A stretch of 64,000 nt of DNA from Bacteroidota bacterium (lineage in GTDB: Bacteria; Bacteroidota; Bacteroidia; Chitinophagales; Saprospiraceae), in contig WGNL01000011.1 in NCBI GenBank assembly GCA_016124585.1, forward strand, positions 1 to 64,000. Reading direction: 5' to 3'. Both the position numbers and the translations under genes were made by a program. Shown piece by piece: positions 41,130 through 48,938 of this stretch (the stretch's first letter is position 1; every line of letters starts with the position of its first letter). The notes below the pieces were generated by a model. It did not search any database, was not told the DNA's origin, and saw only the letters and a program-made list of their open reading frames with translations.

Positions 41130-41160
41130 TTGTTTTCTGATAAAAACACGCTTAGCTTTG
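41130..41160 (+). promoter_or_regulatory. promoter of the his operon
   Basis: TTG at 41130-41132, a 20-nt spacer, then TAGCTTTG at 41153-41160, an exact match to TAnnTTTG. Transcription would start at about 41166-41168, directly in front of the leader-peptide ATG at 41169, so the leader mRNA may be nearly leaderless. Confidence 0.75.
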
Positions 41161-41168
41161 CCGCCATC

Positions 41169-41240
41169 ATGAAAAATTTCATTCACATACATCATCATCA
41201 TTTCTTCTCACCGCAGCCCGGCGAGCAGTCTTGTTTTTGA
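41169..41240 (+). CDS. hisL: his operon leader peptide
   Basis: A 23-residue open frame: MKNFIHIHHHHFFSPQPGEQ then SCF and a TGA. Codon 6 and codons 8-11 are His (CAC at 41184-41186, CAT x4 at 41190-41201). It lies between the his promoter and an intrinsic terminator. The codons for Pro-Gly-Glu (41217-41225) contain the RNA segment that can pair with the terminator's 5' arm, so ribosome position on the His codons would decide whether the terminator forms, the classic arrangement of amino-acid biosynthesis attenuators. Too short to be seen by usual gene calling. Confidence 0.88.
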   Translation: MKNFIHIHHHHFFSPQPGEQSCF

Positions 41241-41309
41241 TGTAAAAACGGAAGTTTTTCAAAGTCAAAAAAGGCTTGTCGGCACACCCGGCAAGCCTTT
41301 TTTGTTTTT
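41218..41309 (+). promoter_or_regulatory. his operon attenuator (antiterminator and intrinsic terminator)
   Basis: The terminator is a 16-bp stem (41267-41282 with 41288-41303, one G-T pair, loop CACAC) followed by a T-rich run to 41309. The alternative structure pairs CCGGCGAGC (41218-41226), inside the leader reading frame, with GCTTGTCGG (41274-41282), the inner part of the terminator's 5' arm: nine consecutive pairs, two of them G-T. A ribosome stalled at the His codons (41190-41201) would leave 41218 onward free for the antiterminator; one that reads to the TGA at 41238-41240 would cover it and let the terminator form. Confidence 0.85.
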
Positions 41310-41374: not shown

Positions 41375-42226
41375 ATGCTTAAACTCGCCATCCAAAAATC
41401 CGGTCGCCTCTACGAAGACTCCGTCGGCCTGCTCAAATCCTGCTCCATTGGTGTCAGCACCGGCGGCGGGCGGTTACGAACCGTTGCGTCGAATTTTCCA
41501 CTAGAGGTGTTCTTCCTTCGTGACGACGACATCCCGCAATACGTCGAGGACGGCGTGGCCGACTGTGGTATCGTCGGAGAGAATGTCGTTTTTGAAAAAA
41601 ACAAGGAAGTCAAGGTTATCGAACCGCTCGGATTTGGTCGCTGCCGACTCTCGCTTGCTGTCCCAAAATCTGCTAACTACGATGGGGTAGCCAGTTTGCA
41701 GGGTGCTCGCATCGCCACATCCTACCCGCAGATTTTAGGGGATTTTCTTCTTAAAAACGGCGTCACTGCCGACCTCCACGAAATCAGCGGCAGTGTCGAA
41801 ATAGCCCCGAGCATTGGTCTCGCCGACTGCATCTGCGACCTCGTCAGCACAGGTAGTACGTTGATTTCCAATGGTTTACGGGAAGTAGAAACCGTTTTGG
41901 AATCACAGGCGGTTTTGGTTGCTTCGCAAAATCTGCCTTCGGAAAAACAGGTATTGCTCGAAAAGCTGCTCTTCCGAATCCGGGCCGTCAAGCAGTCCAA
42001 AAACAACAAGTACATCCTGCTCAATGCCCCCAACGACCGCCTGTCCGACATCATCCGCATCCTGCCTGGCATGAAAAGCCCAACCGTGCTGCCCCTCGCC
42101 GATGCGGGTTGGAGCAGTGTCCATTCCGTCGTGCAGGAAGACCGTTTTTGGGATATCATCGAAGACCTGAAGGTGAACGGCGCACAAGGGATTCTGGTGG
42201 TGCCAATTGAAAAAATGATTTTATGA
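41375..42226 (+). CDS. hisG: ATP phosphoribosyltransferase (long form)
   Basis: First enzyme of histidine synthesis, condensing ATP and PRPP. It is the long, hexameric form (283 aa): two periplasmic-binding-protein-like catalytic lobes (LKLAIQKSGRLYEDSVGLL at the start; ISGSVEIAPSIGLADCICDL with the PRPP loop VSTGSTL at about residue 158) and a C-terminal ACT-like regulatory domain (from about residue 208) for histidine feedback. No HisZ is needed by this form. It opens the his operon after the attenuator. The next gene, hisD, is separated by 88 nt holding a palindrome. Confidence 0.95.
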   Translation: MLKLAIQKSGRLYEDSVGLLKSCSIGVSTGGGRLRTVASNFPLEVFFLRDDDIPQYVEDGVADCGIVGENVVFEKNKEVKVIEPLGFGRCRLSLAVPKSANYDGVASLQGARIATSYPQILGDFLLKNGVTADLHEISGSVEIAPSIGLADCICDLVSTGSTLISNGLREVETVLESQAVLVASQNLPSEKQVLLEKLLFRIRAVKQSKNNKYILLNAPNDRLSDIIRILPGMKSPTVLPLADAGWSSVHSVVQEDRFWDIIEDLKVNGAQGILVVPIEKMIL

Positions 42227-42314: not shown

Positions 42315-43601
42315 ATGCGAATTTCAAAATATCCTGACAATCAACAACTTGCGCAACTTCTCCAACGCCCAGCAATTGACCAAGAAGACCTGTCGGCCAC
42401 GGTTGCTCAAGTGTTGCGGAGCGTAAAAAACAGTGGCGATGAGGCGCTTCGTGGCTTCGCTGCCCGATTTGATGGGGTCGAACTTGACCAGTTTGAGGTG
42501 ACTGCTGAGGAACTGGCCACAGCCGAGCGACTATTGACCGATGGACTGAAAGCCGCCATTCGCCTCGCCGCCAAAAACATCGAAACCTTCCACGCTGCAC
42601 AACGGGAACCTGTCCGTCAAATCGAGACCATTCCCGGCGTCGTCTGTTGGCGCAAAAGCGTGGGCATCGAACGGGTAGGGCTTTACATTCCCGGCGGTAC
42701 AGCGCCACTTTTTTCAACCGTGCTGATGCTAGGCATTCCTGCGCAATTGGCTGGCTGTCAGGAAATTGTGATGTGTACACCTCCAGCGAAAGACGGCTCC
42801 GTTCACCCAGCCATTTTGTTCGCTGCGCAAACGGCAGGAATCAATCGAATCTTCAAAGTAGGGGGAGCACAAGCCATTGGAGCTATGGCCTACGGCACGG
42901 AAACCATTCCGCAGGTCTATAAAATCTTCGGACCCGGCAATCGATATGTAACCGCCGCCAAGCTGCTCGTGCAGCAATCCGGTACTCCAATCGACATGCC
43001 TGCCGGGCCGAGCGAGGTGTTGGTTTTTGCGGATGAAACTTGCGTTCCCGCCTTCGTCGCCGCTGACCTGCTTTCCCAAGCAGAGCACGACGTGGATTCG
43101 CAGGTCGTGTTTTTGACTACTTCCGAAACTATCTTGGAGAAGGTGATTGATGAAGTGGAAAAACAAGTGGCCACCTTGCCCCGTCAGCAAATGCTCCAAG
43201 CAGCACTCGACCACAGCGTTTTCTTATTGCTTGAAAATCAGCAAGTTGTACTCAAAGCTATCAATTTTTACGCCCCTGAACACTTGATTTTAGCTTGTGA
43301 AAACGCCGAGGCATTGGCCGAAAAAGTGGTCAATGCTGGTTCCGTCTTCCTCGGCAACTACACCCCAGAAGCGGCTGGCGATTATGCCAGCGGTACGAAC
43401 CACACTTTGCCCACCAGCGGCTTCGCCCGCAGCTATTCCGGCGTTTCGTTGGATAGTTTTGTGAAAAAAATTACGTTTCAGCGCATCAGCCGTGAGGGAA
43501 TGGCAGGCATCGGGCCGAGCATCGTCGAACTGGCGAGGGCAGAGGAATTGGAGGCACATGCGAGGGCGGTGGCGGTTCGTCTGGTCGGCCCACCCCGTTA
43601 G
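42315..43601 (+). CDS. hisD: histidinol dehydrogenase
   Basis: Last enzyme of histidine synthesis, a zinc-dependent oxidation of L-histidinol to L-histidine in two NAD steps. The 428-aa protein shows the family blocks GLYIPGGTAPLFSTVLMLGI, GPGNRYVTAAKLLVQQ, MPAGPSEVLVFAD, DLLSQAEHDVDSQ and the catalytic Glu-His in YAPEHLILACENAE. Its last nine codons and stop (from 43572: AVRLVGPPR) are formed by the left arm of a 34-bp inverted repeat; the native end was probably just after AHARAV. The body of the enzyme is unaffected. Confidence 0.95.
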   Translation: MRISKYPDNQQLAQLLQRPAIDQEDLSATVAQVLRSVKNSGDEALRGFAARFDGVELDQFEVTAEELATAERLLTDGLKAAIRLAAKNIETFHAAQREPVRQIETIPGVVCWRKSVGIERVGLYIPGGTAPLFSTVLMLGIPAQLAGCQEIVMCTPPAKDGSVHPAILFAAQTAGINRIFKVGGAQAIGAMAYGTETIPQVYKIFGPGNRYVTAAKLLVQQSGTPIDMPAGPSEVLVFADETCVPAFVAADLLSQAEHDVDSQVVFLTTSETILEKVIDEVEKQVATLPRQQMLQAALDHSVFLLLENQQVVLKAINFYAPEHLILACENAEALAEKVVNAGSVFLGNYTPEAAGDYASGTNHTLPTSGFARSYSGVSLDSFVKKITFQRISREGMAGIGPSIVELARAEELEAHARAVAVRLVGPPR

Positions 43602-43643
43602 GGTTCAAAAACCCTAACGGGGTGGGCCGACCAGACGAACCGC
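43572..43643. repeat. 34-bp perfect inverted repeat overlapping the 3' end of hisD
   Basis: Arms 43572-43605 and 43610-43643 are exact reverse complements with a 4-nt loop (CAAA). The left arm codes for the last nine residues of HisD and supplies its TAG stop (43599-43601). The hairpin is GC-rich and very stable, and stands 22 nt before hisC. It lacks a T-run, so read-through is expected and it may instead protect mRNA 3' ends or tune relative expression. Confidence 0.9.
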
Positions 43644-43665
43644 TAGAACTCAATTTCAACTAGTT

Positions 43666-44727
43666 ATGTATAATCTTATAAGAAAAAACATCCGAAATCT
43701 CAAGCCGTACTCCTCCGCTCGCAGCGAGTTCAGTGGCATGGCCTCCGTCTTTTTGGATGCCAACGAAAACGGCCACGACCTGCTCGGGGAGGGGCTTAAC
43801 CGCTACCCCGACCCGCTGCAACTGGCTGTAAAACAACGCATTGCGAAGTTAAAGGGAGTTCCAATTGAGTCCATTTTTCTAGGAAATGGCAGTGACGAAG
43901 CCATTGACCTGCTCTTCCGCATCTTCTGCGAGCCAGGCGAGGATGAGGCCATTATTTGCCCACCCACTTACGGCATGTATCGGGTGCAGGCTGATATTCA
44001 CGGAACCCCAATTCGACAGGTTCTGTTAGCGAAAGACTTCCAACTTCGCCCCGAGGAAGTGCTCGAAGTGTCCACTCCCAACACCAAATTGTTGTTTTTG
44101 TGCTCTCCAAATAATCCCACGGGCAACCTCCTCGACCCCGCTGCCGTGGAGTTTTTGCTCCGCAACTTCCAAGGCATCGTGGTGGTAGACGAGGCCTACA
44201 TTGACTTTGCCGAAGGCTCAAAATCTTGGTCACAACGGCTAACTGAATTCCCGAACTTGGTAGTACTTCAAACACTCTCCAAGGCGTGGGCGCTGGCTGG
44301 AGCGAGATTGGGAATGGCCTTCGCTAGCCCCGAAATCATCCACTACTTGAACGCCGTGAAGTATCCGTACAATGTCGGGGCACCCACACAACGGGTGGTT
44401 TTATCAGCGTTGGAACAGGGCCTGGAAGGCACGGTTTCAGCCATTATTGCGGAGCGAAAAAAACTGGAAAAGGCGCTGGCAGAATTTGAGTTTGTTGAAA
44501 AAATCTATCCCAGTGATGCTAATTTCCTCTTGGTAAAAATGAAAGGTAGTGCCTTGATTTTCAATTACTTAAAACAGAATGGCGTAGTGGTCAGGGATAG
44601 GTCACGGGAACCACTTTGTGAGGGATGTCTGAGGATTACGGTGGGCACTCCTGACGAAAATAACGTACTGCTTGAGCTACTGGCTGCATTCAAACCTTCT
44701 CTCATTCAAACCTTCAATCCTTCATGA
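43666..44727 (+). CDS. hisC: histidinol-phosphate aminotransferase
   Basis: PLP enzyme of fold type I that aminates imidazole-acetol phosphate with glutamate. The 353-aa protein has the substrate/cofactor motifs LDANENGHD, NRYPDP, LGNGSDEAIDLLFR, CSPNNPTGN, VVDEAYIDFA and the Schiff-base Lys206 in LQTLSKAWALAGARLG, and ends with the Arg-containing LRITVGTPDEN. The start is the ATG at 43666. Its stop overlaps the hisB start by four bases (ATGA), so the two are translationally coupled. Confidence 0.95.
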   Translation: MYNLIRKNIRNLKPYSSARSEFSGMASVFLDANENGHDLLGEGLNRYPDPLQLAVKQRIAKLKGVPIESIFLGNGSDEAIDLLFRIFCEPGEDEAIICPPTYGMYRVQADIHGTPIRQVLLAKDFQLRPEEVLEVSTPNTKLLFLCSPNNPTGNLLDPAAVEFLLRNFQGIVVVDEAYIDFAEGSKSWSQRLTEFPNLVVLQTLSKAWALAGARLGMAFASPEIIHYLNAVKYPYNVGAPTQRVVLSALEQGLEGTVSAIIAERKKLEKALAEFEFVEKIYPSDANFLLVKMKGSALIFNYLKQNGVVVRDRSREPLCEGCLRITVGTPDENNVLLELLAAFKPSLIQTFNPS

Positions 44728-45827
44728 AAAAGATACTCTTCCTCGACCGGGACGGCGTACTCATCGATGAAGTGCCCGAAACCTTCCAGATTGACACCTT
44801 GGAACAAATGGTGCTGCTTCCCGGCCTCATCCGCAACCTGCACAAAATCAGAATGCAAACTGATTACCTGCTGGTGATGGTCACCAACCAAGACGGCCTT
44901 GGCACGAAGGTTTATCCGCAGGAAAACTTCGACCGGGTGCAGGGCAAACTGTTGCAAATCCTTGAAAACGAGGGGATTGTATTCGATGCCATCCATGTGG
45001 ACAAGAGTTTTGAACACGAGAACCTACCTACCCGAAAACCCGGCATAGCCATGCTCACAGAGTATCTGAACGGCGACTATGACCTCGCCAACAGCTACGT
45101 CGTCGGCGACCGCCGCACGGACATCATGTTGGCCAAGAACCTCGGTGCTCGGGCCATCGGTATTCGAGGCCTTTTGCCTTTTGGGGAATGGGAACAGCAG
45201 GCAGAACTTGTTGTGGATGCTTGGGATGAGATAGGAGACTACCTGCTGCGACCAAAGCGTACTGCAAGTGTGCATCGCAAGACCAAAGAGACCGATATTT
45301 TCATCGAAGTCAATTTGGACGGTAATGGTCTAGTTGAAATTTCTACTGGCCTCGGTTTCTTCGACCACATGTTGGAGCAGGTTGCTCGACATGGCAGTAT
45401 CGACCTGAAAACCAAGGCGTTAGGCGACCTTCACATTGACGAACACCATACAATCGAGGACACAGGCCTGGCACTAGGCGAGGCATTTTTGAATGCACTA
45501 GGCGACAAGCGGGGCATCGAACGCTACGGTTTCTGCCTACCTATGGATGACTGCTTGGCGCAGGTGGCGCTCGATTTTGGAGGGCGTCCGTGGCTGGTTT
45601 GGGAAGCCGATTTTAAAAGGGAAAAAGTCGGTGATATGCCTACCGAAATGTTCTTCCACTTCTTCAAATCCTTCAGCGACACGGCCAAGTGCAACCTGAA
45701 CATTAAGGCCGAAGGTCAGAACGAACACCATAAAATCGAGGCGATTTTCAAGGCGTTTGCGAAGGCAATTAAAATGGCGGTGCGGAAGGAAGGGAATGCG
45801 CTGCCGAGTACGAAGGGCGTATTGTAG
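44724..45827 (+). CDS. hisB: bifunctional histidinol-phosphatase / imidazoleglycerol-phosphate dehydratase
   Basis: Fusion of two enzymes. Residues 1-165 form a HAD-type phosphatase (LFLDRDGVLIDE with Asp8 and Asp10; the zinc-loop region and YVVGDRRTDIMLAKNLG near residue 130). From about residue 175 the dehydratase follows, with its metal-binding repeats LGFFDHMLEQVARHG, DEHHTIEDTGLALGEAF, DFGGRPWLVW and EGQNEHHKIEAIFKAFA. It catalyses the sixth and eighth steps of the pathway. It overlaps hisC by 4 nt. The TAG stop (45825-45827) lies inside the left arm of the repeat at 45824-45994. Confidence 0.95.
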   Translation: MKKILFLDRDGVLIDEVPETFQIDTLEQMVLLPGLIRNLHKIRMQTDYLLVMVTNQDGLGTKVYPQENFDRVQGKLLQILENEGIVFDAIHVDKSFEHENLPTRKPGIAMLTEYLNGDYDLANSYVVGDRRTDIMLAKNLGARAIGIRGLLPFGEWEQQAELVVDAWDEIGDYLLRPKRTASVHRKTKETDIFIEVNLDGNGLVEISTGLGFFDHMLEQVARHGSIDLKTKALGDLHIDEHHTIEDTGLALGEAFLNALGDKRGIERYGFCLPMDDCLAQVALDFGGRPWLVWEADFKREKVGDMPTEMFFHFFKSFSDTAKCNLNIKAEGQNEHHKIEAIFKAFAKAIKMAVRKEGNALPSTKGVL

Positions 45828-45994
45828 CGTCGACTTTAGCCGGCGAAGTACAACAACCTTCAGGTTGTAGCCCAAAGAAAAATTGCGCAAAAAAAATTTT
45901 CCAAAATATTGATAATCAATTGATTAAATGAAATATTGGTCGGCTGTCAACAAACTAAAGTTTGTTGTACTACGCCGGCTAAAACCGACGCTAC
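45824..45994. repeat. inverted pair of REP-like units between hisB and hisH
   Basis: Left arm 45824-45856 and right arm 45962-45994 are inverted copies, 30 of 33 positions matching. Each arm is followed on the inside by a small hairpin (CAACCTTCAGGTTG near 45854 and CAAACTAAAGTTTG near 45951-45964), so the whole looks like two inverted copies of a about 47-nt unit with an AT-rich centre of about 75 nt. It fills the space from the hisB stop codon to 3 nt before the hisH ATG. REPIN-like or MITE-like; no transposase is in the window. Confidence 0.8.
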
Positions 45995-45996
45995 TT

Positions 45997-47361
45997 ATGA
46001 AAACAGCCATTATTAAATACAACGCAGGCAATATCCAGTCCGTGCTGAACGCCTTGGAGCGGCTCGGTGTGGAGGCAATTTTGACGGACGACCCGGCGGA
46101 GATTCGGGCGGCAGAGCGGGTCATCTTCCCCGGCGTGGGTGAGGCGAGCACAGCCATGAAATACCTTCGGGAACGGGGGGTGGACGAGGTCATCCGCAGC
46201 CTGACTCAGCCTGTTTTAGGCATCTGTTTGGGCATGCAATTACTAGGCGAACACTCGGAAGAGAATGACACGGAATGTCTCGGCATCGTGCCAGCTAGGG
46301 TGCAGAAACTTCCAAACGGCCTTGGCTTGAAAGTACCGCATATGGGCTGGAATTCGGTTCAATCTATTGATAATAAATTATTTATAAACCTTCCAGAAAA
46401 CCCCTTTTTCTACTTCGTACATTCCTACGCAATGGAGCTGAACGAGGCGACAATCGCCAAAACCGAGTACGGCATCCCGTTCACAAGTGCAGTGCAATGG
46501 CAGAATTTCTACGGGGTGCAGTTCCACCCTGAGAAAAGCGCAGAGGCGGGTGAGCAGTTGCTTCGCAATTTTTTGAACTTGCAAACCCCAGAGGTGACAC
46601 CTTTTAAAAAGGTGTCACCTCTGGTCGCCTTCAACACCATACCTGCAATGGACCTGATGAACGGCCACTGCGTCCGCCTGCGCCAAGGCGATTTTGCGCA
46701 ACAAACAAAGTACTCCTCCGACCCACTTGAGGTCGCCAAGCAGTTCGAGGAGGCAGGCTTCCAACGCCTGCACATGGTGGACTTGGACGGGGCAAAAACG
46801 GGCAAGCCGCAACACCTGCACATCCTCCAAAAAGTAGCGGCGGAAACCTCGCTCACCATTGATTTCAGCGGCGGCATCAAAACGGATGCGGACATCAAGG
46901 CCGTATTCGAAGCAGGGGCGGCCATAGCAGCCATCGGAAGTGTCGCAGTAAAGAATAAACCGCTGTTTTTCAAGTGGTTGCAACAATACGGCGCTGAAAA
47001 AATCCTGCTCGGGGTGGATGTTCGGGACGAAAGACTGGCTATCAGCGGCTGGCTGGAGCAGACGGAAATCGGGCTTTTCGAGTTCCTGGAGGAAATGACC
47101 AGGGCGGGTGTACGGCAGGTTTTCTGTACGGACATCGGACGGGATGGGCTGCTCACCGGGCCTTCCACCCAGCTTTATCGGCGGGTGCTTGCGCAATTTC
47201 CGGGGCTGCGGCTGATTGCCAGCGGTGGGGCCAGCAGGCCAAGTGATTTGGCGGAATTAGCAGAGATTGGCTGCGCTGGAGCGATTGTGGGGAAGGCAAT
47301 TTATGAGGACATAGACAACTTAGCGGCGTGGACAGGTTCCCTTCGAGAATTACAAACGTGA
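45997..47361 (+). CDS. hisHA: HisH-HisA fusion: glutamine amidotransferase subunit of IGP synthase joined to ProFAR isomerase
   Basis: One 454-aa frame carries two enzymes. Residues 1 to about 197 are HisH, the glutaminase that feeds ammonia to HisF, with triad Cys77 ([13 protein letters not shown]), His177 and Glu179 (QFHPEKS). From about residue 210 HisA follows ([62 protein letters not shown]). The junction is a 37-nt palindrome (46588-46624) read through in frame as [12 protein letters not shown]. HisH has no stop before it and HisA no ATG of its own before IPAMDL, so the fused product is unavoidable unless cleaved later. ATG at 45997 chosen; the upstream frame lies in the repeat. Confidence 0.92.
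46588..46624. repeat. 37-nt palindrome joining hisH and hisA
   Basis: Arms 46588-46605 and 46607-46624 (18 nt each) are exact complements around a single A. The element is wholly translated and bridges the end of HisH and the beginning of HisA. Confidence 0.92.
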
Positions 47362-47386
47362 CGTAGATGGATTGAAAAACGGACTA

Positions 47387-47425
47387 TATCAACCCTTATC
47401 AACTGTTATCAACCTTTATCAACCC
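47387..47425. repeat. 10-bp tandem repeat before hisF
   Basis: Four units TATCAACNNT: TATCAACCCT, TATCAACTGT, TATCAACCTT and a final TATCAACCC. The same unit, with the same spacing, occurs at 956-992. It lies between the hisA stop (47361) and the hisF ATG (47432) and is not translated. Confidence 0.8.
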
Positions 47426-47431
47426 AAAAAA

Positions 47432-48187
47432 ATGCTTGCAAAACGTATAATTCCCTGCCTCGACATCAAGGACGGGCGCACGGTGAAAGGGGTTAATTTC
47501 ATCAACTTGCGGGACGCTGGCGATCCGGTGGAACTGGCCGCACGGTACGCTGCTGAAGGTGCCGATGAACTCGTTTTCCTTGACATCACGGCAACGGTGG
47601 AGGGGCGCAAAACCTTTGCAGAATTGGTGCGCCGCATTGCGAAGGCTATCAACATCCCGTTCACAGTGGGTGGTGGCATCGGTTCGGTAGCCGATGTGTC
47701 GGTGCTGCTGGATGCCGGTGCGGACAAGGTGTCAGTGAATTCAGCTGCGGTACGTAATCCTTTGCTAATCAACGATTTGACCAGGGAATTTGGGAGCCAA
47801 TGCATCGTCGTGGCCATTGATGCAAAATGGGATGAAGGCGATTGGTGGGTCTTTCTGAATGGCGGTCGTTTGCGTACGGCGGTTCGGGCGTTGGCTTGGG
47901 CAGTCGAGGCGCAGGAACGTGGCGCTGGTGAAATTCTTCTCACCTCGATGGATCACGACGGCAGCAAAAACGGTTTTGCCATTGAACTGACGAGGGCCAT
48001 ATCGGAACGGCTGCACCTCCCAGTTATCGCCAGCGGTGGGGCGGGCAGCATGGAGCATTTTACCGAAGTTTTTACCGAGGGAAAAGCCGATGCGGCACTG
48101 GCGGCGAGCATCTTCCATTTTGGGGAGATACCGGTGCCGGAGTTGAAAACCTATTTGCGAAGCAAAAAAATTCTTGTTCGAATGTAA
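47432..48187 (+). CDS. hisF: imidazole glycerol phosphate synthase cyclase subunit
   Basis: Cyclase half of IGP synthase, a TIM barrel of 251 aa that joins ammonia from HisH to PRFAR, giving IGP and AICAR. Catalytic Asp11 ([10 protein letters not shown]) and Asp130 (VVAIDAKWD) are in place, as are the phosphate-binding loops (FTVGGGIGS and ASGGAGSM) and the C-terminal [11 protein letters not shown] segment. ATG 47432 is preferred over an upstream in-frame ATG that would translate the tandem repeat at 47387-47425. Its partner HisH is fused to HisA here. Confidence 0.95.
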
Positions 48188-48199
48188 TGGTCAATGTCA

Positions 48200-48283
48200 C
48201 TTTTGTCATTGCGGAAGGCAAACTGCGAAGTCATGTGTGACTGCTCTGATGACTTTGTGGGTCGCCTGCGGCGATGACAAAAG
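48200..48283. repeat. 84-nt imperfect palindrome between hisF and hisI
   Basis: CTTTTGTCAT (48200-48209) pairs with ATGACAAAAG (48274-48283), and the complementarity continues inward (GCGGAAGGCA with TCGCCTGCGGC, and GAAGTCAT with ATGACTTT) with a few mismatches, forming a long branched hairpin. It fills most of the hisF-hisI gap. One arm recurs alone at 41315-41340. Confidence 0.72.
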
Positions 48284-48308
48284 CGGCGTAGTTAATCATT
48301 GGAAAATC

Positions 48309-48938
48309 ATGCAAATCAATTTCAAAAAATACCCCGACGGCCTCGCCCCGGCCATCATTCAGGATGCTCAAACGGGTGTGGTGCTCATGCTTGGCTTCAT
48401 GGACGAGGCGGCTTTTGTGAAGACGTTGGAGGAGCAACGGGTCACGTTTTTCAGCCGAAGCAAGCAACGGCTCTGGATGAAAGGTGAGATGAGTGGCAAT
48501 TTCCTTGATGTGGTGGAAGTACTGCCGGATTGCGATGCAGATACGATTTTAATCAAAGCAAAACCTCATGGGCCAGTCTGTCACACGGGAAGTGACACTT
48601 GTTTTGGGGAGAAAAATGATGTGAGAACTGACCGGGTGACTCAAAGTCACCCGGTCAGTGAAATGTTCCTTCCTGAATTGGAAACTATCATTAATGGCCG
48701 CTTCAAAAATCTTGATGAAAACAGCTACGTAGCGAGCCTTGCGAAAAAAGGGGTGAAAAAAATTGCGCAAAAAGTAGGGGAAGAGGCGGTGGAGCTTGTC
48801 TTGGAAGCACAGGATGACAAACCGGATTTGTTTTTGGGGGAAGCAGCGGATTTGGTGTTCCACCTGTTAGTGTTGTTGCGGGCGAAGGGCTTTTCATTGG
48901 CGGACGTGGAGGCAGTTTTACGTAGCCGGAAAAAATAA
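48309..48938 (+). CDS. hisIE: bifunctional phosphoribosyl-AMP cyclohydrolase / phosphoribosyl-ATP pyrophosphatase
   Basis: Fusion of steps two and three of the pathway, 209 aa. The HisI domain (1 to about 100) has its zinc Cys residues Cys75, Cys91 and Cys98 (VLPDCDADT, GPVCHTGSDTCFG) and the SRSKQRLWMKGE and GFMDEAAF motifs. The HisE domain (from FLPELETIING) has EEAVELVLEAQ and the acidic GEAADLVFHLLVLLRAKG helix. Between them, residues 107-117 are coded by a 33-nt palindrome (48627-48659), 11 codons long and in frame. ATG 48309 is used; longer in-frame starts would run through the 48200-48283 repeat. Last his gene. Confidence 0.94.
   Translation: MQINFKKYPDGLAPAIIQDAQTGVVLMLGFMDEAAFVKTLEEQRVTFFSRSKQRLWMKGEMSGNFLDVVEVLPDCDADTILIKAKPHGPVCHTGSDTCFGEKNDVRTDRVTQSHPVSEMFLPELETIINGRFKNLDENSYVASLAKKGVKKIAQKVGEEAVELVLEAQDDKPDLFLGEAADLVFHLLVLLRAKGFSLADVEAVLRSRKK
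48627..48659. repeat. 33-nt palindrome inserted in frame in hisIE
   Basis: Arms 48627-48641 and 48645-48659 are exact 15-nt complements around CAA. The length (33 nt, 11 codons) preserves the frame. It encodes TDRVTQSHPVS in the linker between the HisI and HisE domains. Confidence 0.9.

Follow-up and report, generated by a model that had tools for sequence, protein, structure and literature searches.

In the histidine attenuator of Escherichia coli a hairpin involving the His codons is formed, as is predicted for the locus described here, and both systems possess a run of His codons before hisG together with an intrinsic terminator. The two differ in layout: in E. coli hisL (RF00514) the partner of the terminator arm begins 40 nt past the last His codon and beyond the leader stop, whereas at the present locus it begins 16 nt past the last His codon and inside the leader ORF. 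A comparative study of attenuation in bacteria by Lopatovskaya et al. from 2010 may hold prior art. Concerning the Bacteroidota themselves, the portions of the literature available describe a tryptophan peptide leader, Rfam family RF01692 or Bacteroid-trp (PMC2864571), which is likewise a leader-peptide RNA of this phylum but relates to Trp and not to His, and a structured 5′ element without Rfam match that precedes hisG in Flavobacterium psychrophilum and other Flavobacteriaceae (PMC9723704). The latter report also presents strong clues for leader-peptide attenuation before amino-acid operons of F. psychrophilum. Its hisG element shares gene and phylum with ours, although the hisG section of that report, in the part available, gives no leader sequence, pairing or mechanism and does not name the Saprospiraceae. 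Among the literature matches listed, as far as their accessible text goes, no detailed his attenuator of the Bacteroidota was found, PMC9723704 being the nearest.

In the current study, a 64,000-nt stretch of DNA from a member of the Saprospiraceae (64 kb, hereafter the window) was analysed, and the elements located around its hisG gene are collected in Table 1. A preliminary description of this DNA had listed a promoter (TTG, a 20-nt spacer and then TAGCTTTG), a 23-aa leader peptide with His at codon 6 and at codons 8-11, a terminator at 41267-41303 with its T-run and a 9-bp alternative pairing between the segments here termed arms B and C; each of these parts was found where it had been placed, while a predicted protector hairpin (41170-41194 with 41238-41261) had been missed. 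The leader contains five His codons in 23 and is the only ATG-started ORF shorter than 160 nt with four consecutive His codons on either strand of the window. The names of the genes from hisD to hisIE were assigned from Pfam domains and gene order. In this operon HisH and HisA are encoded, according to Pfam, by a single 477-aa ORF at 45928-47361; the fusion is also present in two genomes of the same genus (G005 and G011), the two genes being separate in others such as G006 and G007.

Table 1. Elements of the his leader region and operon, in positions of the window.
Element	Position	Strand	Basis or pairing partner
-33 promoter element, TTG	41130..41132	+	located by sequence
-7 promoter box TAGCTTTG, Bacteroidota sigma-A type TAnnTTTG	41153..41160	+	located by sequence
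his leader peptide ORF, 23 aa, MKNFIHIHHHHFFSPQPGEQSCF then stop	41169..41240	+	ORF located; His-rich leaders in relatives
Protector hairpin, outer 5′ arm	41170..41180	+	pairs with 41251-41261; minimum-energy fold
His codon 6 of leader	41184..41186	+	located by sequence
Protector hairpin, inner 5′ arm in His codons	41188..41194	+	pairs with 41238-41244; minimum-energy fold
His codons 8-11 of leader, regulatory codons	41190..41201	+	located by sequence
Antiterminator arm B, CCGGCGAGC, in Pro-Gly-Glu-Gln codons	41218..41226	+	pairs with 41274-41282
Protector hairpin 3′ arms: 41238-41244 over stop codon, 41251-41261	41238..41261	+	minimum-energy fold
Terminator 5′ arm (contains arm C)	41267..41282	+	sequence; minimum-energy fold
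Arm C, GCTTGTCGG, common to antiterminator and terminator	41274..41282	+	located by sequence; fold
Terminator 3′ arm (41288-41303) and T-rich tail (GTTTTT)	41288..41309	+	sequence; fold
hisG, first gene of controlled operon	41375..42226	+	Pfam HisG and HisG_C
hisD, hisC, hisB, fused hisH-hisA, hisF, hisIE (remainder of operon)	42315..48938	+	ORFs; Pfam

The segment 41165-41310 folds at -52.8 kcal/mol (z = -8.2), a value equalled by none of 200 shuffles, and much of this excess is contributed by the terminator, which when folded alone reaches -25.2 kcal/mol (-25.3 kcal/mol with a ribosome on the stop codon). Arms B and C form nine pairs with an energy of -13.8 kcal/mol. In a folding model of the window, a ribosome placed on the last His codon leaves the RNA free from about position 41206, with a B:C pairing of about 1 and a fold of -22.9 kcal/mol. 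With the ribosome on the stop codon, arm C is engaged in a weak local fold of -3.7 kcal/mol and the terminator forms, and it also forms when no ribosome is present, arm B then being held by the protector hairpin and the B:C pairing being 0.00. A codon-by-codon sweep of the ribosome, which counts any upstream partner of arm C, gave an upstream pairing of this arm of 1.00 at codons 4-12 and 0.19-0.24 over the Pro-Gly-Glu codons; once the ribosome had reached the stop codon it was still 0.56, the partner being weak local sequence. The equilibrium fold still favours the terminator over the antiterminator when a ribosome is stalled (-35.4 kcal/mol); the switch must therefore operate kinetically, with the decision taken during transcription. 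An H-type pseudoknot of the protector hairpin with the B:C pairing was considered, arm B sitting in the protector loop; the fold programs used do not model structures of this type.

We conclude that the window element is very probably a histidine-sensing, ribosome-mediated transcription attenuator of the his operon (hisG-hisIE). It combines a leader with His codons before this operon and an intrinsic terminator between leader and hisG with an antiterminator that, in the folding model, is mutually exclusive with the terminator and dependent on the position of the ribosome. The preliminary description had spoken of a translational attenuator; the attenuation mechanism is supported, and it is best read as one that acts on transcription through the ribosome. 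Computation and comparison show the parts and their conservation, as well as pairings that exclude one another and that depend on where the ribosome is placed in the model; where transcription starts, that charged tRNA-His is sensed and that the operon is regulated are inferred. RNA polymerase would start a few nt 5′ of 41169 and a ribosome would enter the leader with almost no 5′ UTR. When charged tRNA-His is scarce, the ribosome would stall on His codons 8-11, breaking the protector hairpin and leaving arm B free to pair with the emerging arm C, so that the terminator could not form in time and the operon would be transcribed. With plentiful histidine the ribosome would pass the Pro-Gly-Glu codons towards the stop codon and cover arm B, whereupon the terminator would form and transcription would end before hisG. 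In the absence of a ribosome, the protector hairpin would hold arm B and the terminator would likewise be formed.

A search for hisG gave matches in 26 of 60 relatives, in 171 of 395 genomes of the class and in 171 of 198 of the phylum, and a scan of named genomes supplied a further 80 loci, kept from 210 that matched. In all, 300 upstream regions were compared: the searches of relatives and class supplied 134 and the class another 40, the named loci account for 80, and the remaining 46 were picked from other classes so as to represent a range of families. They represent part of all matches, and since some named loci repeat unnamed ones and rows share ancestry, the counts are not independent; L038 and L228, which have almost no upstream DNA, are included. 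A His-rich leader is present in 259 of the 300 regions. In the first batch a His-rich short ORF (at least three His in six codons, within 450 nt) was found in 122 of 134 regions; the reverse strand gave 3 of 134 and each of ten shuffled sets gave 4-11, and when at least four His were demanded the corresponding figures were 103, 0 and 0-1. The further batches had a His leader in 33 of 40 class regions, 76 of 80 named loci and 27 of 46 other-class regions, some of these last 27 being possibly due to chance. Chitinophaga pinensis is among the species in which a leader was seen (L202 and L219). Among the 19 other-class misses, 11 (L273-L283) have another type of HisG start and eight have a window-type start, so that the leader is not universal in the phylum. 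A match to hisG was absent from seven of 13 same-genus genomes, some of which are incomplete, and histidine synthesis may often have been lost in this genus.

A terminator was recognised in 214 of the 259 leader regions. Outside these are 11 regions of the HHSS type described below, which were set aside, and 34 without a recognised terminator; as a terminator-like hairpin is visible by eye in six of the 34 (L033, L042, L048, L199, L200 and L261) and a strong hairpin without a T-run in two (L008 and L015), the figure of 214 is a lower bound. The comparison of relatives' hisG upstream DNA that the preliminary description had proposed reveals conservation of the leader frame, the promoter, the terminator and the alternative pairing.

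An exact TAnnTTTG box lies at most 90 nt 5′ of the His run in 190 of the 259 leader regions, compared to a mean of 20 in shuffles, and TTG precedes these 190 boxes 143 times at a spacing of 18-21 nt, other spacings occurring 0-17 times each (mostly fewer than seven). An in-frame leader start codon is located 3′ of the box in 186 of the 190 regions. The gap between box and start has a sharp floor, being 2 nt in one region, 3 nt in none and exactly 4 nt in 23, which suggests leaderless starts in those regions. At the window locus the gap between the TAGCTTTG box and the ATG is 8 nt, and the leaderless initiation previously proposed for it agrees with the promoter spacing, from which, however, a leader that is near-leaderless at most would be predicted. 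According to the accessible parts of the respective reports, about 3.7% of 5′ UTRs in B. thetaiotaomicron are shorter than 10 nt (PMC7366714) and leaderless mRNAs amount to 5.5% in F. psychrophilum (PMC9723704).

When the stall model was applied to the 214 regions, the mean upstream pairing of arm C was 0.82 with the ribosome on the last His codon versus 0.25 at the stop codon. The rise from stop to stall exceeded 0.2 in 203 of the 214 regions, as opposed to 48-57 in each of ten linker-shuffled sets, while a strict criterion (above 0.7 stalled, below 0.3 at stop) retained 127 regions versus 4-12 in shuffled sets. Without a ribosome the mean was 0.49, with values above 0.5 in 88 of 214 regions, and the protector pairing (the His-codon region with the stretch past arm B) ranked in the top 5% against its shuffles for 52 regions out of 100; default termination is thus clear in the window but not general. 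These 100 regions, on which several tests were performed, derive from 123 leader regions of the first batch, of which 103 have a terminator and 100 were kept. The pairing segment begins in them at a median of 13 nt past the last His codon, approximately the distance covered by the leading edge of a ribosome.

In 68 of the 100 regions the region's own arms paired well enough to reach the top 5% when compared with 100 linker shuffles, the group of L085, L088, L091 and L096 showing arm pairing no better than such shuffles. When set against the arms of other genomes, own pairing ranked in the top 5% for 21 of the 100 regions and first for seven, a weak contrast because most arms belong to one type, and the comparison was redone by terminator type. 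Among the 214 regions, 113 terminators are of the GCTTRCC type, 33 of the CCGTYTGA type and 68 of others, with own-arm pairings of -13.8, -13.0 and -12.6 kcal/mol, respectively. Linkers pair with arms of another type at -7.3 to -10.2 kcal/mol over all types (-9.0 for GCTTRCC-type linkers with CCGTYTGA-type arms and -7.3 for the converse), and with other genomes' arms of their own type at -13.0 (GCTTRCC), -11.4 (CCGTYTGA) and -9.0 (others) kcal/mol. In a table of 200 distinct arm pairs, which counts paired positions only, each position from -8 to +2 relative to the arm's loop end shows five or six pair types. The sequences compared indicate that the arms covary between lineages, the pairing persisting as the bases change. 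Both arms are identical in all but one of the seven hisG-bearing genomes of the genus, and these six are uninformative in this respect; two-sided changes occur within the genus in L008 and, beyond it, in further cases, and the pairing is kept through these compensatory changes, for which the preliminary description had asked.

It had also been claimed that the Pro-Gly-Glu codons downstream of the His run are the very bases forming the antiterminator, which is borne out by the position of arm B, and that this would explain the conservation of a PQPGE-type tail. Of the seven genomes of the genus that possess hisG, six have a PxGE tail (PQPGE twice, PPAGE, SHPGE, PQSGE and PKPGE), and the codons GGC GAG are identical in all six, synonymous sites included. 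In the seventh, L008, the leader ends in ...RHTGRQWRW and the tail is lost, and the arms CCGGCAGGC and GCTTGCCGG form nine pairs (-16.5 kcal/mol), also 16 nt past the last His codon. Most other genera are without PxGE, the position reading, for example, LPxG, QAR or VGHD, and in some of them the arm lies partly or wholly 3′ of the leader stop codon. Since PxGE is lost in L008 and other genera while the pairing is kept, it is the RNA pairing rather than the peptide that seems to be under selection, and the tail would be a by-product of the pairing, as had been guessed, albeit one that is conserved only locally. A peptide-level cause of the tail was rejected on the same grounds.

One could also suppose that the nascent peptide acts by itself, its PxGE tail arresting the ribosome from within the exit tunnel and the RNA pairing playing a secondary role, with which the PxGEQ-type tails of six of the seven hisG-bearing genomes of the genus would agree. 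This reading is extremely unlikely given that L008 and other genera retain the pairing without the tail, that GGC GAG is invariant at synonymous sites and that in 30 of 100 regions at least part of the arm's first 8 nt falls outside the ORF. It is also very unlikely that a constitutive terminator merely adjoins a chance His-rich ORF, with the promoter of hisG then lying 3′ of 41303. His leaders are too frequent for this (122 of 134 regions as against three on the reverse strand), and conservation extends to the pairing of the arms and to where it lies with respect to the His codons, although the terminator is strong (-25.2 kcal/mol) and, with 34 of 259 leaders lacking a recognised one, leader and terminator are not always found together.

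A T-box, another known riboswitch or a protein-binding leader might occupy the same region, T-boxes being in control of his genes in other phyla according to the available part of one report (PMC9413887). An Rfam scan, however, returned no family at gathering score in the window leader or in the loci of 13 relatives, the T-box family not being among the matches listed for the window leader, and a run of His codons is characteristic of ribosome-sensing devices, all of which makes such a regulator highly improbable. Ribosome-mediated transcription attenuation remains the preferred explanation of the window element.

Leaders for other amino acids were found in the window's genome. The one before ilvD (L330) is an Ile/Val leader, MPNLTNIIAIIIIVVSPPG, followed by a terminator and with arms that pair at -18.8 kcal/mol; the one before trpE (L332) has three Trp codons, a terminator and a weak arm pairing of -8.9 kcal/mol. 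Attenuation thus seems to serve more than one pathway in this genome. An Ile/Val leader with a terminator was present in four of eight ilvD-family loci (arm pairing -12.7 to -18.8 kcal/mol) and a Trp-run leader with a terminator in six of six trpE-family loci, L338 being left out (weaker arm pairing, -8.9 to -11.9 kcal/mol), while homoserine dehydrogenase loci mostly have too little upstream DNA for a thr leader to be judged. Under stricter filters RF01692 was detected in four of 119 class genomes; the window's genome has no match to it, despite the Trp-run leader before trpE.

Variation was also evident in what follows the His codons. The 12 leaders designated HHSS-type because their peptides end in HHSS or something similar (L017, L072, L073, L078, L080, L082, L084, L100, L120, L123, L128 and L129) all have a conserved hairpin that straddles the stop codon (ATTCCTC-stop-GAGGAAT or a near variant), with a mean score of 17.5 versus 5.9 in shuffles, and perhaps embody a second output design. 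The terminator scan found none in nine of these 12; in the other three it took the stop-codon hairpin itself (L084 and L128) or a short GC-rich one (L129). Family f60 (six regions, L284-L289), in which the scan found no terminator, has leaders whose last part forms a hairpin of the kind ATCGCC...GGCGAT (score 16.3 versus 6.7 in shuffles) that spans the leader stop in four of the six. In family f109 (ten regions, L263-L272) neither a terminator nor a stop hairpin beyond the level of shuffles was found. Its leaders are rich in His codons (eleven in L266, four in L264), and the gap before hisG has a C content of 0.22-0.33 and a G content of 0.06-0.11, the means in the 214 regions being 0.17 and 0.18; one might guess from this C-rich, G-poor gap at Rho-dependent attenuation.

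In six of the 300 regions, all from the window's family (L009, L010, L013, L014, L016 and L105), a tRNA-Phe(GAA) ends 0-25 nt before the leader start, and it may be, as a guess, that the leader is co-transcribed with the tRNA and acquires its 5′ end from tRNA processing. A joint reading of these observations is offered tentatively, as one that is possible yet rather doubtful. His leaders would be the usual control of hisG in much of the Bacteroidota, many of them beginning right at the 5′ end or only a few nt from it, and the output device would have been swapped more than once, for a stop-codon hairpin in the HHSS type and f60 and for Rho in f109. Some leaders of the Saprospiraceae would lie behind tRNA-Phe, with a 5′ end made by tRNA 3′ processing and with the his terminator also ending the tRNA transcript.

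The findings of this study point to classical ribosome-mediated attenuation of histidine synthesis as a widespread feature of a phylum for which the literature found in our searches had only hinted at it, and the window element provides a clear and testable anatomy in which the promoter spacing implies almost no 5′ UTR. The Bacteroidota do without Shine-Dalgarno sites, and because initiation on these leaders must occur without such a site and very near the 5′ end, they would serve as natural reporters of how ribosomes of this phylum start. The His leaders would also report how closely these ribosomes follow RNA polymerase, and the terminator-less variants would show one sensor joined to different outputs.

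In comparison with known systems, E. coli thrL (RF00506) shares with the window a compact two-state design, in which the regulatory codons are followed by an antiterminator arm in the last codons of the leader and this arm copies the 3′ arm of the terminator. The two are unlike in amino acid, gene and phylum, and the window leader starts close to a TAnnTTTG promoter. Employing the same script, thrL gave -23.4 kcal/mol and values of 0.65 stalled and 0.00 at stop, while for E. coli hisL the sign was reversed (0.41 with the ribosome stalled, 0.76 at stop), from which it follows that the simple stall model does not describe every attenuator, the hairpin set of hisL not being captured by it. A weak match to Thr_leader (RF00506) extends over 41167-41305 (26.6 bits, E 0.0036), and membership of this family was ruled out against its 55-bit cut-off, as was that of Bacteroid-trp (RF01692; 19.5 bits against a 49-bit cut-off) and of His_leader (RF00514), which had no match in the window leader. 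The start of the leader at or near the 5′ end is a trait shared with trpL of Sinorhizobium meliloti (PMC7298713) and the ilvBNC leader of Corynebacterium glutamicum (PMC11857589), as described in the available parts of these reports, both of which concern other phyla and other amino acids. As for the novelty of the layout, on which the preliminary description had been unsure, an antiterminator within the leader already exists in E. coli thrL, and for the present phylum such a device is only hinted at in the accessible part of PMC9723704. The kind of switch is an established one, and the window represents a further case of it, widespread in the class and hardly described in the Bacteroidota.
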